In this document: one piece after another, positions 36,119-45,283 of the stretch
How positions within the stretch are numbered: the first letter of the stretch is position 1
Layout of the letters: every line of letters starts with the position of its first letter
From: a virus
Reading direction: 5' to 3' (one strand)
Virus record (IMG/VR): IMGVR_UViG_3300047335_000108
Location: 1-45,283 of that record
DNA length: 45,283 nucleotides
Position numbers and translations under genes: made by a program
The notes under the pieces: model-generated
Told to the model about the DNA's origin: nothing
Databases searched by the model: none
Seen by the model: only the letters and a program-made list of their open reading frames with translations

Positions 36119-36384
36119 TCCACCCTCCAATCCGGACGAGGTGCGCGCGTCTCGCCGAGCGACACTTCGAAACGCAATATCGCGCCCGGCATGTCGAACC
36201 AGAGCCGGAACGAGATCCAAGCCGGGATGATGGCGGTGAGCCGTTCGCGATACACGTCGAACCGAGCGTTCTCTTGGGCCGTGAGAGTCCGGTCCGGAGT
36301 GAGCATTACGCCGCGGGCATCGACGTCACGCCGCATGTCGAAGAGCACGTCATTGAGCGCGGTGATCGAGTCCTGGGTGATCAT
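36115..36384 (-). CDS. Hypothetical protein, 89 aa
   Basis: ATG 36384 overlaps the XF1762-like stop; longer frames would overlap that gene entirely. The protein is MITQDSITALNDVLFDMRRD, helical to residue 50, then a strand-rich end (ISFRLWFDMPGAILRFEVSL). It is short and conserved only in context. Function unknown. Confidence 0.55.
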   Translation of the reverse strand: MITQDSITALNDVLFDMRRDVDARGVMLTPDRTLTAQENARFDVYRERLTAIIPAWISFRLWFDMPGAILRFEVSLGETRAPRPDWRVE

Positions 36385-36887
36385 CGCTCGCCCCCGCCGG
36401 CTGGTCGCGGGGCGATAACTGAGGACCACGGCGCCCACCAGCGGCGTTTCGGTGCCACATCGAGAGCGAGTTCCCGCTGTCGGGATGGTCGACCCCACTC
36501 GCCACCGGCCGTAATAAGGTCGGTTCGCCACCCCGCGGCCCGAAGCGACACGCCGGTCTCGTCGAGATGCGTGTACGTCAGCATTCCGTCGAGCCCCATG
36601 CCGCGACCCGCACGCGCGCACGCTCCGTACAGCATCGAGCAGCCGTTCGGTGTCCCCTCCGCGACGGCGACTCGGGTCACTTCGACCACTCCGATTCGAG
36701 TGCGCGCCGGGACGTCGAGTAGACGCGCACCAGGACGCCCGACTACCGCGACTCCGCGCAGTTCGTCGCCGCACCAAAGTCCAAGGGACCACATCGCGCC
36801 GCGGACCGAAGGCAGGCGCCGGTGAACTCGCGCCACCCATTCGGCGGCATACTTGACCGGGTAGAGGCCCGTTCGGAGCTTACTCAC
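36381..36887 (-). CDS. XF1762-family (GNAT-like) protein, 168 aa
   Basis: GTG 36887 overlaps the integrase stop (GTGA). The protein shows the XF1762 pattern: AAEWVARVHRRLPSVRGAMW, ELRGVAVVGRPGARLLD, VVEVTRVAVAEGTPNGCSML, YGACARAGRGMGLDGMLTYT and DETGVSLRAAGWR. It is an acetyltransferase-like fold common in phages with unknown substrate. Its translation is coupled to the integrase C-terminal tail that integration removes. Confidence 0.8.
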   Translation of the reverse strand: MSKLRTGLYPVKYAAEWVARVHRRLPSVRGAMWSLGLWCGDELRGVAVVGRPGARLLDVPARTRIGVVEVTRVAVAEGTPNGCSMLYGACARAGRGMGLDGMLTYTHLDETGVSLRAAGWRTDLITAGGEWGRPSRQRELALDVAPKRRWWAPWSSVIAPRPAGGGER

Positions 36888-38326
36888 AACAACCCTCCGA
36901 CCGCCTCGACCCGGCACGACGTGAGAGCCGACGCCGCCGCGATGTGCCAGCCAGGGGGGAGGGGGAGGCCGTGAAGGGGGCCGAGCTCCAGGTCCGCGGG
37001 GACGCCGGGCTGGCGGATGGGAGACACGTGGTGGATCGAAATCTCGGCCGAATTTCGATGATCGGCGCCGTACAAATTCGGCACACGTTCGGCACGTCTC
37101 TTGCGGGCATGAGCGAGCTTATTGCCTTGAGATCGCGGACTTACACGCTGTACTAGGCGACCATCGACACCCGGCCTTCGAAGCCGAATGTCGCAGGTTC
37201 GACTCCTGCCGGGCGTACCACTTTCCGGCGAATTTGACGGGTCATCGGTGCCGCCTTGGGTCTCCAAGGCAATCCCGGCGTACAGATCCGGCACAGCTCC
37301 ACTGAGCTGCTGTTCGACGAGCTTCCCGACCTTGCGGCCCCGGAGCTTCGCGTAGGTGGTCTCGAGCAGGCGAGTCGTCGTGTGGCCCATCATCGGGGCG
37401 ATGTTCGCGAGCTCTACGCCCGCCTCCGCATGCCACGTCGCGAAGGCGCGACGGAAGTCGTTGGGGGAGTACCGGGGGATTCTCGCCCGTACGCACGCCG
37501 CCGCGATGTCCCGGATGTAGTTGCCGCTTCCCCACGGACGGAAGAGGAGATCCTTCCCGGGCGCGCACGCGAGGCACGCCTCCACGATCGGCCGCATTAG
37601 CTTCGTGATGGGGATCTCGCGAGCCGACGCATCCGTCTTGGTGCCGCGCAAATAGACGAGCCCCTCGTCGAGTCGCACGTCACCGCGTCGCGCGCGCACC
37701 GATTCGCTCCAGCGCGCTGACGTCGAGATCATGAAGAGGAAGTGGCCGAGGCGAATCTTCGGGAAGTGCGCGACGAGCGCTCGGAACTCGTCGGGCGTCG
37801 GGCACCTTTCCACCGGCGTATACGAGCCCTCCAAGTCCGGGGGCACGAGCGCCGCGATCTGCACATCGCGCGGAAACCGCTTGAGGTACTGACAAAGTCG
37901 GAGCACGCGAGCGAGATGCCGCCACTCCTTTTTGACCGTATATGCGCCCGCGCCTTCGCCCCGCCGCTGCTCGATGAACGCAAGCACGAGCGATTCCGTG
38001 ACCTTCACGAGAGGAAAAGACTCGCCCCAGACCCGCACGAAATGTCCGAGCTTCCCCTTCGCGGCCTCGATGGTCGGGACTGCATTCCCCCGGCGCTCCA
38101 TGTCCGCGATGAGAAGCGTCACCCCGTCGCCGAGGGACGTCGCGCACGCGGCTGCGTAATCCGGATCGGCGTATTGGCGCTCAAATTCGTTCGCCCTCGC
38201 GCTCGCGGCTTTTTCGTCCGTGCATCCGGTGGACTTCCGCTCGATGTACCCGTCGGCTCCGGGGACCCGGCACCAGATCGTGTTTCCCCGCCAATAGAGC
38301 CGCTTGTCGATGAGGGGCCTTCGCAT
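36884..38326 (-). CDS. int: Tyrosine-recombinase integrase with attP inside its frame, 480 aa
   Basis: ATG 38326 is chosen because GCGGAGGA lies six bases upstream and the conserved region starts at MRRPLIDKRLYWRGNTIWCR. Catalytic residues are R205 in STSARWSE, K230 in GTKTDA, R292 in NDFRR (Asn289 replaces the usual His), H315 in MGHTTT and nucleophile Y325 in ETTYAKL. Residues 370-386 are encoded by the tRNA-like attP core, and 94 residues follow. After integration at the matching host tRNA, everything past residue 370-386 is replaced by host sequence, as described for Myxococcus phage Mx8 IntP. The XF1762-like gene is coupled to the stop. Confidence 0.9.
   Translation of the reverse strand: MRRPLIDKRLYWRGNTIWCRVPGADGYIERKSTGCTDEKAASARANEFERQYADPDYAAACATSLGDGVTLLIADMERRGNAVPTIEAAKGKLGHFVRVWGESFPLVKVTESLVLAFIEQRRGEGAGAYTVKKEWRHLARVLRLCQYLKRFPRDVQIAALVPPDLEGSYTPVERCPTPDEFRALVAHFPKIRLGHFLFMISTSARWSESVRARRGDVRLDEGLVYLRGTKTDASAREIPITKLMRPIVEACLACAPGKDLLFRPWGSGNYIRDIAAACVRARIPRYSPNDFRRAFATWHAEAGVELANIAPMMGHTTTRLLETTYAKLRGRKVGKLVEQQLSGAVPDLYAGIALETQGGTDDPSNSPESGTPGRSRTCDIRLRRPGVDGRLVQRVSPRSQGNKLAHARKRRAERVPNLYGADHRNSAEISIHHVSPIRQPGVPADLELGPLHGLPLPPGWHIAAASALTSCRVEAVGGLL
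37077..37095. repeat. Direct repeats TTCGGCAC, candidate integrase arm sites
   Basis: TTCGGCAC at 37077-37084 is repeated at 37088-37095, 11 bp apart, about 75 bp from the attP core. Two copies one helical turn apart are a common form of arm-type integrase or accessory-factor site. A related TCCGGCAC lies on the other side near 37280. This is only suggestive. Confidence 0.3.
37171..37220 (+). other. attP core: 3' half of a tRNA (likely tRNA-Arg, UCG)
   Basis: On the + strand the region folds as an anticodon arm (loop CTTCGAA, anticodon TCG), a 5-base variable loop, a T arm GCAGG-TTCGACT-CCTGC, acceptor CGGGCGT, A and CCA. No matching 5' half (ACGCCCG acceptor strand) lies upstream within 80 bases. 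This is therefore the restored tRNA end of an attP site, not a working tRNA. It lies antisense inside the integrase gene, codons 370-386. Confidence 0.85.
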
Positions 38327-38481
38327 TCCGTCCTCCGCAAATATGCCTGCAACGCCTGTTCCGTGACCCGCAACTGAGACCCGATGAAATGATGCACCAT
38401 GCAATGCATGAGGCGCCGCGCCGTCCGCACTGAGACGGAGAGCCTCTCCGCCACTTCCGCCGGACCGAGGAGAGGAGTCAT
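38119..38481 (-). CDS. Excisionase-like HTH protein, 120 aa
   Basis: Residues 1-52 are an excisionase-type winged HTH: MTPLLGPAEVAERLSVSVRT, ARRLMHCMVHHFIGSQLRVT, EQALQAYLRRTECEG. The remaining 68 residues overlap the integrase frame and are low-complexity Ser/Gly/Arg, so the useful protein may be just the N-terminal part. It directs Int toward excision. Its Ser/Arg tail is unusual, and a lost early stop or sequence error is possible. Confidence 0.65.
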   Translation of the reverse strand: MTPLLGPAEVAERLSVSVRTARRLMHCMVHHFIGSQLRVTEQALQAYLRRTECEGPSSTSGSIGGETRSGAGSPEPTGTSSGSPPDARTKKPRARGRTNLSANTPIRITQPRARRPSATG

Positions 38482-39284
38482 AGCGCCGTCACGTCATCCC
38501 TCATCGCGCAGACCTTGCGCAGGATCGACTGCGTTTCAGCTGCCCAGTCGAAGACCACTTCCGAGCATTCCTTTTCGGAATATTTTTTCTGTTTTGCCGC
38601 CGCCTCCGCCTCCGCCGCCGCCGCCTCCGCCTCCGCCGCCGCCGCCGCCGCCGCCGCCTCCGCCTCCGCCGCCGCCTCCGCCTCCGCCGCCGCCGCCGCC
38701 GCCGCCGCCGCCCACCGCGCCGCCTCCGCCTCCGCCGCCGCCGCCGCCGCCTCCGCCTCCGCCGCCGCCCACCGCGCCGCCGCCGCCGCCTCCGCCGCCG
38801 CCGCCGCCGCCCACCGCGCCGCCGCCAAGCGATCGGCTGCATCCTTTAGCCCAGCCGCGCGGAGCGCAGCGACCGCGCACACCCGAACCGCCCAATCCGC
38901 GAACGCGAACGACCGTCGTCGGCGGAGTTGTTGAGACCCCGCCGTGTCAAGGAGGAGATTCTGGATCTCCTCGGGGAATGCGCGCGTGCGCATCTCATCG
39001 TTGGGCATCCGATCGTTGGTCGTCCGGACGAACCGCCCGATTACGGGACAGATGCACGGATGAGCGTCGGTCCAATTCGCGACGATCTCTTGATGGGGGC
39101 GACCGTCGCGCAGCATCTTGCGCACGTACGCCGCCTCCATGGCGCACGTCCCCTTGATCTGCCCGGTCCCCCCGGGACTATGCCCGCCGTGCCGGATCGT
39201 CTTCAAGAGCTCCGCATAGTCGACCCCCGGATCGACCGGCGCGCTCTCCTCGACGCTTACCTTTTCGCTCAACGACTCGTTCAT
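38478..39284 (-). CDS. Conserved phage protein with long alanine-repeat tail, 268 aa
   Basis: Residues 45-150 match a family widespread in phages and actinobacteria: GTCAMEAAYVRKMLRDGRPH, DAHPCICPVIGRFVRTTNDR, MPNDEMRTRAFPEEIQNLLL, ADWAVRVCAVAALRAAGL. After residue 152 the protein becomes an Ala/Glu helix with RWAAA blocks for about 78 residues, encoded by GCN triplets. A final part (KKYSEKECSEVVFDWAAETQ) follows. The role is unknown; the Ala segment may expand or contract by slippage. Confidence 0.7.
   Translation of the reverse strand: MNESLSEKVSVEESAPVDPGVDYAELLKTIRHGGHSPGGTGQIKGTCAMEAAYVRKMLRDGRPHQEIVANWTDAHPCICPVIGRFVRTTNDRMPNDEMRTRAFPEEIQNLLLDTAGSQQLRRRRSFAFADWAVRVCAVAALRAAGLKDAADRLAAARWAAAAAAEAAAAARWAAAEAEAAAAAAEAEAARWAAAAAAAAAEAEAAAEAEAAAAAAAAEAEAAAAEAEAAAKQKKYSEKECSEVVFDWAAETQSILRKVCAMRDDVTAL
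38598..38825. repeat. GCC/TCC trinucleotide repeat tract
   Basis: About 230 bp of nearly uninterrupted triplets (GCC, TCC, ACC on the + strand; GGC, GGA, GCG read as Ala and Glu codons on the minus strand) with three CCCACCGCGCC interruptions that encode Arg-Trp. It can slip in replication, altering protein length in steps of one residue. Several other frames across it read as poly-Pro or poly-Gly and are not genes. Confidence 0.85.
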
Positions 39285-39315
39285 CGCCTTCTCCTTATCT
39301 TTGCAAACTACACAC

Positions 39316-39534
39316 TCACTTCGCTCGCACGACGCAGAGGCATTCCGCGTCGTCCCATCGCCAGTACGTCGCGTCGGTGCGGACCAACGCGGGGCGCATG
39401 CCGTCGGGACACGAGCGGCGATAGCAGCCGGCTACGGCGCGGCGTTGATGCCATTCGACCGCGACGCTCGGGAGGCCGATGACGAGCGCGATCCACGCAG
39501 CGAGAAGGATGGCGATTTTTGCTTTCGAGGTCAT
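39316..39534 (-). CDS. Small membrane/secreted Cys-rich protein, 72 aa
   Basis: An N-terminal hydrophobic helix (KIAILLAAWIALVIGLPSVA, residues 5-24) is followed by a short Cys-rich outside domain: GCYRRSCPDGMRPALVRTD, then WRWDDAECLCVVRAK. This looks like a periplasmic or membrane-tethered mini-protein with two disulfides. It is the second leftward gene after the Cro-like gene, so it is expressed early or in the lysogen. Superinfection exclusion is a plausible but unproved role. Confidence 0.65.
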   Translation of the reverse strand: MTSKAKIAILLAAWIALVIGLPSVAVEWHQRRAVAGCYRRSCPDGMRPALVRTDATYWRWDDAECLCVVRAK

Positions 39535-39617
39535 GCCGCACCTTTAGCTGATAACTACACGTTTGCCACTGGTCGCCCGTCTACCCTTGCGCTTGACCGA
39601 TAGGCGGTCATGCTGCG

Positions 39618-39893
39618 CTATGCCGCGCGCGCTGCTGGTGGAACAAATCTCCTCTTCGGCGGAAGAGCCCACATCTGTTGCTGGATCCCAAACACCGCCG
39701 CAAATCGCGATGCCAGTTCGCGACCCGCCTTTCGATCCCCATACAGGATCCTCCAGATCGCGGACGGTTGGACTCCGACCCGAATCGCCGCCGAGGGAAC
39801 CGAGAGGTCGTTGCGATCAAGAAACAGCCAAAGCAGTCGCGATGCTTCGCAGAACTTTGGGCCTAGAACCAAACGATGCGACCGGTCACCCAT
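39618..39893 (-). CDS. Cro-like HTH regulator, 91 aa
   Basis: Starting at ATG 39893, residues 18-62 form a Cro/CI HTH: LWLFLDRNDLSVPSAAIRVG, VQPSAIWRILYGDRKAGREL, ASRFAAVFGIQQ. The gene begins at the leftward operator-promoter (39900-39928), just six bases from the -10-like CACCAT, so the mRNA may be leaderless. Position and size fit Cro, opposing the divergent repressor. The C-terminal QMWALPPKRRFVPPAARAA is basic. Confidence 0.7.
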   Translation of the reverse strand: MGDRSHRLVLGPKFCEASRLLWLFLDRNDLSVPSAAIRVGVQPSAIWRILYGDRKAGRELASRFAAVFGIQQQMWALPPKRRFVPPAARAA

Positions 39894-44902: not shown

Positions 44903-45169
44903 ATGGGTCTATTTTGGCTGTCGTTTTGCGACACTGAGCGACCGGAGGGACAGCAATTTCTCGGGGCGTGCATGGTACATGGCGAGACGCTGGAGGATGC
45001 GATCCTCACGGCGTGGATGCTGAGAGTCAATCCGGGCGGCGAAGTGGCTAGCCTGGAGGTCCCGCCGACCGTGGAGACCCATGTGGCGAGCAAATGGATC
45101 GGTCGCCTGCTCACGCGAGAAGAAGCCGAGCAGTTCGACCGCGAGATCGCGCCACACGGTGTCTCGTGA
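44903..45169 (+). CDS. Conserved hypothetical phage protein, 88 aa
   Basis: MGLFWLSFCDTERPEGQQFL, GACMVHGETLEDAILTAWML and RVNPGGEVASLEVPPTVETH follow a pattern I recognise from small proteins in many phages and prophages (WLSF-D-x-ERP-x-G-x-QFLG ... NPGGEV), with no known role. It ends at TGA 45167-45169, inside the terminal repeat. The same frame stays open for 30 more codons after the stop and encodes a Cys/His-rich stretch. Confidence 0.75.
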   Translation: MGLFWLSFCDTERPEGQQFLGACMVHGETLEDAILTAWMLRVNPGGEVASLEVPPTVETHVASKWIGRLLTREEAEQFDREIAPHGVS

Positions 45170-45283
45170 CCCTCCCCACCGTGTGTCCACGAGCACGATT
45201 ATGCGAAGTGCGGCGACGAGACGTATTGCGGGTGCACGCCACCCGGACAAGTCGAGTCGTAGGAGATTCACGGTAATGCGCGC
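45157..45283. repeat. Terminal direct repeat, right copy
   Basis: Identical to bases 1-127; see the left copy. Genes crossing this end continue at base 1, so the rightward operon is unbroken from 40528 to the terminator at 683-721. Confidence 0.9.

Follow-up and report, generated by a model that had tools for sequence, protein, structure and literature searches.

A tRNA 3′ half lying antisense within the integrase frame of a circular phage genome is the probable attP core, and its placement recurs across an integrase clade

The locus described here raises the question of what integration does to a phage integrase when the attachment site lies inside the integrase reading frame. The window, by which we mean the whole stretch of 45,283 nucleotides that was analyzed, encodes on its minus strand a lambda-type tyrosine integrase (int, ORF 36884-38404), and this frame runs antisense through the 3′ half of a tRNA gene (37171-37220, plus strand). 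A preliminary description of this DNA took the tRNA half for attP, and proposed that integration must change the integrase C terminus, that the difference between the phage and prophage forms could make integration one-way, and that the leftward operon is cut from its promoter in the prophage. The architecture itself is already known: att sites within the element's own integrase gene are described, in the section of PMC4701971 that deals with them, as a feature of very few elements, with Myxococcus phage Mx8 as the example, and the relevant part of the Islander paper (PMC4383910) allows for integrases extending across attP, naming Mx8 and SSV.

Read directly, the plus strand at 37171-37220 (CCGGCC...GGGCGTACCA) comprises an anticodon loop with the anticodon TCG, a T arm, the acceptor strand and CCA, corresponding to the 3′ half of tRNA-Arg(UCG). 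These 50 bases match a real tRNA-Arg(TCG) of an Acidobacteria MAG (L003) at 48 positions, a resemblance far beyond chance. The segment is present in one copy in the whole record, and ARAGORN found no whole tRNA in the window. In the int frame the core reads SGTPGRSRTCDIRLRRP and occupies approximately codons 370-386, numbered from the ATG at 38326; it begins ~44 codons after the catalytic tyrosine and is followed by 95 codons to the TGA at 36884. The preliminary description had placed it correctly, with 94 codons to follow where we count 95. The first 127 bases of the record (1-127) are identical to the last 127 (45157-45283), giving a circular map of ~45.2 kb, and these identical ends, together with the single core, indicate a circular attP-form genome rather than a prophage end. 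Among five relatives that were fetched whole, terminal repeats were found in L035 (120 bp), L036 (19 bp) and L037 (127 bp) and were absent from L038 and L040, so that L035 and L037 are likewise circular, and each of the five contains one full core copy.

The int ORF matched PF00589 at 6.7e-11 and phrog_1 at 1.3e-30, and the best solved structures retrieved with Foldseek were lambda integrase chains. It can start at a TTG (38404) or, likelier, at the ATG at 38326, which yields a protein of 480 residues. Of the catalytic residues of the Phage_integrase domain (R..HxxR..Y), R205, R292, H315 and Y325 are present and invariant in the alignment. In box II (window 37460-37480) the first histidine is replaced by Asn289, which is invariant in 11 aligned sequences; an asparagine at this position, where tyrosine recombinases have the first histidine of box II, is seen clade-wide (NDLRRT/NDFRRA). 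An AlphaFold2 model built from 11 sequences places a beta sheet near the N terminus (residues 10-35) and is confident to approximately residue 342, and the pLDDT is ~30 over residues 343-480, a stretch that takes in the core, the tail and the greater part of the linker. The linker from the tyrosine to the core (~44 codons, 37221-37355, minus strand) has coding-like codon usage, with pLDDT below 50 from residue 343. With order predicted to about residue 342 and the core starting from about residue 370, the catalytic protein is, according to the model, complete ahead of the core.

The integrase belongs to a clade with the motif PNDLRRT, for which we found no description in the literature searched, the coverage of which was partial. 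Clade members were collected by a profile search of viral_contigs combined with the motif [TS]PNDLRRT, which yielded 44 loci; removal of two 60-residue matches (L169 and L170) and addition of L035 and the window again gave 44 loci, in which the tRNA half was located by a T-arm search. The half lies inside the int ORF in 25 loci and at or after the stop in 12, and the search returned none in the remaining 7 (L129, L138, L140, L147, L149, L163 and L164). When inside the ORF it is antisense in 24 cases (the window, L035, L127, L128, L130-L133, L139, L141-L143, L145, L146, L150-L157, L161 and L167) and sense in one, L144, where a tRNA-Leu-like 3′ half is followed by ~95 codons. When after the stop it is antisense in six (L134, L136, L162, L165, L166 and L168) and sense in five (L135, L137 and L158-L160); L148 has the half lying across the stop. 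The preliminary description had named relatives with int ending before the tRNA-like segment as evidence that would count against it; such relatives do exist (12 of the 44, with the half straddling the stop in L148), set against the 25 with the half inside. By anticodon, the tRNAs of the clade include Arg, Lys, Phe, His, Thr, Val and Leu. In an earlier, broader set of 80 loci, the T arm was inside the ORF in 5 of the 10 closest, while among the other 70, which include many near-copies of one another, it began inside the ORF in only one, at the very end (L048). The 44 loci also contain a near-identical pair, L130 and L132 (97% body identity). In the tests described below, L130, L132, L133, L144, L155 and L158 were left out of the run-on and arm-repeat analyses (tyrosine not parsed automatically), L148 was left out of the arm-repeat analysis (short flank), and L035 was left out of the pair comparison (motif FNDLRRT).

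The core is flanked by a direct repeat, both copies of which read on the minus strand. The first copy, TGTGCCGGATCTGTAC at 37276-37295, lies within the linker coding sequence and precedes the core by 75 bases on the int strand; the second, TGTGCCGAATTTGTAC at 37066-37085, lies within the tail coding sequence and follows the core by 86. The two match at 17 of 20 positions, and a weaker copy at 37083-37093 abuts the second. Given these positions at -75 and +86, the whole candidate attP (~37066-37295) lies inside the int ORF. Compared with shuffled sequence, the repeat in the window gave P 0.01 with 150-nt flanks and P 0.086, which is not significant, with 250-nt flanks. We scored the best 15-mer direct match between the left and right flanks in the 30 clade loci with enough flank: 25 beat shuffles at P<=0.05, and 13/15 matches were reached in 27 of the 30 loci, compared to 8% of mismatched left/right flank pairs. 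The first repeat was inside the int ORF in 28 of these loci and the second in 13. The arm motif of the window is also present in the repeats that flank the core in L034/L135 and L036/L150, of which L135 and L150 target other tRNAs. By comparison with lambda-type systems, where binding of this kind occurs, these repeats are candidate integrase-binding arm sites. The circular attP-form record and the flanking candidate arm repeats together suggest that the tRNA half almost certainly serves as the attP core, in agreement with the preliminary description. That it could instead be a chance or relic fragment, with the real att site of int elsewhere, is scarcely credible: although exact-core searches gave no prophage junction for this phage, the segment is 48/50 identical to a tRNA 3′ half with the CCA included, it is placed just behind int with direct repeats on both sides, and relatives show the same placement with other tRNAs.

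With the tRNA half taken as the attP core, the tail of int beyond it (~95 codons, 36887-37170, minus strand) may be either a functional part of the protein or a run-on of the frame. Its predicted structure is of low confidence (pLDDT ~30) and the coding score of the whole tail is ambiguous. The first 29 codons are noncoding-like and the last 66 are more coding-like; for the latter, 3.0% of noncoding-frame windows score as high and 12.7% of coding windows score as low, and one opposite-strand frame in the same region scores equal to the int frame. The chance probability of 94 or more consecutive open codons in this phage's DNA is ~0.18-0.19, and an open post-core run of such length is thus not unusual. 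Across 20 loci in which the frame crosses the core, tail lengths compared with a Markov run-on model gave P values from 0.02 to 0.80 with a mean of 0.47, so that selection on tail length was rejected in favor of chance run-on; among 26 antisense loci the frame crossed the core in 20, versus 15.2 expected (sd 2.3), a modest excess over chance. In 32 pairs of relatives whose bodies are at least 50% identical, similarity at P<=0.01 was found for the linker in 14 and for the tail in 3 (L127/L141, L130/L132 and L142/L146), one of these pairs being near-identical overall. Between L143 and L146, identity is 90% for the body and 88% for the linker but drops to 43% for the tail, where the two diverge right after the core as though the attP sequence beyond it had been swapped. 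In L038 and L040 the tail is not conserved, and a conserved DNA island of ~34 bases lies directly past the int stop and resembles the T arm of the core in inverted orientation.

The same architecture is found in Mx8 (NC_003085). In both phages the att core lies in frame within int, past the catalytic tyrosine, as an antisense tRNA 3′ half followed by a long open stretch (~114 codons in Mx8 and 95 in the window), and in both an HTH gene (uoi in Mx8) overlaps the 5′ end of int. The passages on Mx8 in two reviews describe replacement of a 112-residue C terminus by 13 residues on integration (PMC4701971, PMC6070905), and portray the prophage-form integrase as less active (PMC4701971) or altered in specificity (PMC6070905). 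For the window, the corresponding replacement is expected from topology, and among the loci compared an arrangement of this kind is seen only in the prophage-like relative L155. The two systems differ in that the tRNA is read in another frame, and in that the prophage-form integrase of Mx8 has been assayed by others while the window is known from sequence alone. Common descent with Mx8 Int was rejected, since BLASTP gave an E of 0.13 over the N-terminal part and 6.5 for the tails. The Mx8 analogy drawn in the preliminary description was thus apt as far as the architecture is concerned.

Chance tail lengths, rare conservation, predicted disorder and the absence of a tail in 12 relatives indicate that the tail is probably dispensable, and in our reading it is translated but largely unconstrained. 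The same observations bear on the possibility of a switch like that of Mx8, in which the 95-residue tail would be functional (in activity, site preference or partner binding) and its loss on integration would help to prevent reversal of integration until excision factors come into play. We consider a switch of this kind quite unlikely, because int stops before or at the core in 12 of the 44 clade loci, tail lengths match chance run-on, the tails of relatives are rarely conserved, and there is no confident fold past residue 342, a helix at residues 460-479 being drawn at a pLDDT of ~35 only; these points are set against the shared architecture with Mx8, whose prophage-form integrase reviews call changed or less active, the more coding-like last 66 codons, and the overlap of the int end with the start of the next gene (GTGA), a hint that the end of the frame might be maintained. 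The proposal that a difference between phage and prophage integrase makes integration one-way is therefore not supported by the tails. The ordinary candidate for directionality would be an excisionase-like HTH_17 gene (38119-38481, minus strand; PF12728 at 1.5e-6, and phrog_66, excisionase and transcriptional regulator, at 7.1e-5), which overlaps the 5′ end of int in another frame.

Other systems with att sites in integrase genes resemble the window less closely. The part of an archaeal review that deals with suicidal integrases (PMC8371274) describes the SSV type, in which att also lies within the integrase gene and integration alters the gene; in that type the gene is cut on integration into int(N) and int(C) and the catalytic part is divided from the rest, whereas in the window the catalytic part would remain intact, with the change confined to the tail. 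Membership in the suicidal type was rejected, as both arginines, the histidine and the tyrosine all precede the core. Streptococcal ICEs in rumA, as far as the accounts available describe them, likewise have att in the integrase gene and C termini that differ between the excised and integrated states, but they use a serine integrase and their target is not a tRNA. With lambda-type tyrosine integrases that use tRNA genes the window shares the fold, the candidate arm-core-arm sites and the HTH excisionase-like neighbor; the difference is that in the other integrases compared here the stop usually precedes the tRNA, the T arm being inside the ORF in one of the 70 more distant loci (L048).

Downstream of int on the minus strand lie genes for a Mom-like DNA modification protein, a DNA methyltransferase, a replication initiator, a DnaC-like loader and a terminase, and large minus-strand ORFs run on to the left end of the window. 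The Mom-like gene (36381-36887, minus strand; phrog_1384 at 5.2e-23) is the one whose start the preliminary description had noted, under the name XF1762-like, as coupled to int, and it can indeed start at a GTG at 36887 that overlaps the int TGA as GTGA and is closely preceded by GGAGGG. Its product matched 25 phage records at up to 43% identity, and its E of 0.0045 against Pfam Mom did not reach the cut-off. On the other side of int, a long GCC/TCC-rich repeat at 38600-38830 encodes Ala/Glu-rich tracts in a minus-strand ORF (38478-39284) that has no PHROG match. The gene order and the GTGA coupling would be compatible with a transcriptional consequence, namely that after integration a promoter on the int side no longer serves the leftward genes (Mom-like, methyltransferase, replication, terminase and structure), leaving them off in the prophage. 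We regard this as unlikely, given that a sigma-70 consensus scan of 36300-39700 on both strands returned no promoter-like site, that a Mom-like neighbor is rare in relatives' records (1/10 and 2/23 in two surveys) and lies upstream of int in L040, and that an inverted repeat read by eye past the int stop of L037 is a possible terminator. By topology, int would be split from the leftward genes, and to this extent the operon claim of the preliminary description stands; its promoter part drew no support from the scan or from the relatives.

The searches for hosts and lysogens covered viral_contigs and genome_contigs. The exact 49-base core had no match in either, and searches with the core identified no lysogen, prophage junction or host of this phage in these collections; exact short peptides of int and of terminase retrieved no close relatives from viral_contigs. 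With three variable-loop positions left free, the core had a single match in genome_contigs, in L003, at an empty tRNA-Arg site of a genome that need not be the host. In 396 genomes of the phylum of L003, int had weak matches in 97 (best 34% over ~140 aa), and none of 20 loci inspected from these Acidobacteria-phylum matches encoded a clade-member integrase; plasmids gave two weak matches. At a surrogate junction made with the upstream DNA of L003, the frame was open through all 300 bases used, which leaves the tail length undefined.

A possible view of the integrated state is offered by L155, in which the int ORF continues antisense across the whole of a tRNA-Leu(TAA) gene and stays open for 32 more codons, in a record that begins at ATG and ends exactly at the int stop, like a trimmed provirus. 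A second core copy was not found in this record, so its other end is unconfirmed. L155 thus looks like a prophage form, with a phage-borne tRNA gene as the alternative, and its read-through indicates that the int frame can stay open across a restored tRNA into flanking DNA.

On the explanation that we favor, recombination by the lambda-type tyrosine integrase would take place between the attP core and the 3′ half of a tRNA-Arg(UCG) gene in the host. The arm-core-arm region (~37066-37295) would overlap the 3′ end of int, whose frame merely has no stop across it, so that the tyrosine would be followed by a coding linker with one arm, the antisense tRNA, and a run-on tail with the other arm. After integration, int would adjoin the restored tRNA gene and point into it, its new tail being the antisense tRNA 5′ half plus host sequence to the first stop, and the remaining leftward gene series would move to the other end of the prophage. 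By this topology all sequence past the core would be replaced, consistent with L155, and to that extent the claim of the preliminary description that integration must change the int C terminus holds. The tail swap would be a by-product that cannot be avoided when att DNA is packed within int, and directionality, as elsewhere among lambda-type systems, would most likely be set by the excisionase-like HTH protein together with the arm sites. Taken as a whole, this explanation, in which the window represents a temperate tailed phage in its circular (attP) form, attP is packed into int, the tail swap is a by-product and the tail is probably dispensable, is in our judgment likely to be correct.

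The new part of these findings is the clade-wide recurrence of att within int. The presence of the tRNA half in the int ORF in 25 of 44 loci of one clade suggests that this arrangement is a recurrent by-product of compact int-att modules. A more far-reaching idea, which we consider rather improbable, is that the PNDLRRT clade represents a portable one-gene att-in-frame module that moved among at least seven tRNA types (Arg, Lys, Phe, His, Thr, Val and Leu), with the swapped tail acting as a sensor of the lysogenic state in some members. For annotators there is a caution, in that the C-terminal parts of these integrases are encoded by att DNA and, in the case of prophages, by host DNA; the clade also provides a natural set of phages for asking whether the swapped tail matters.
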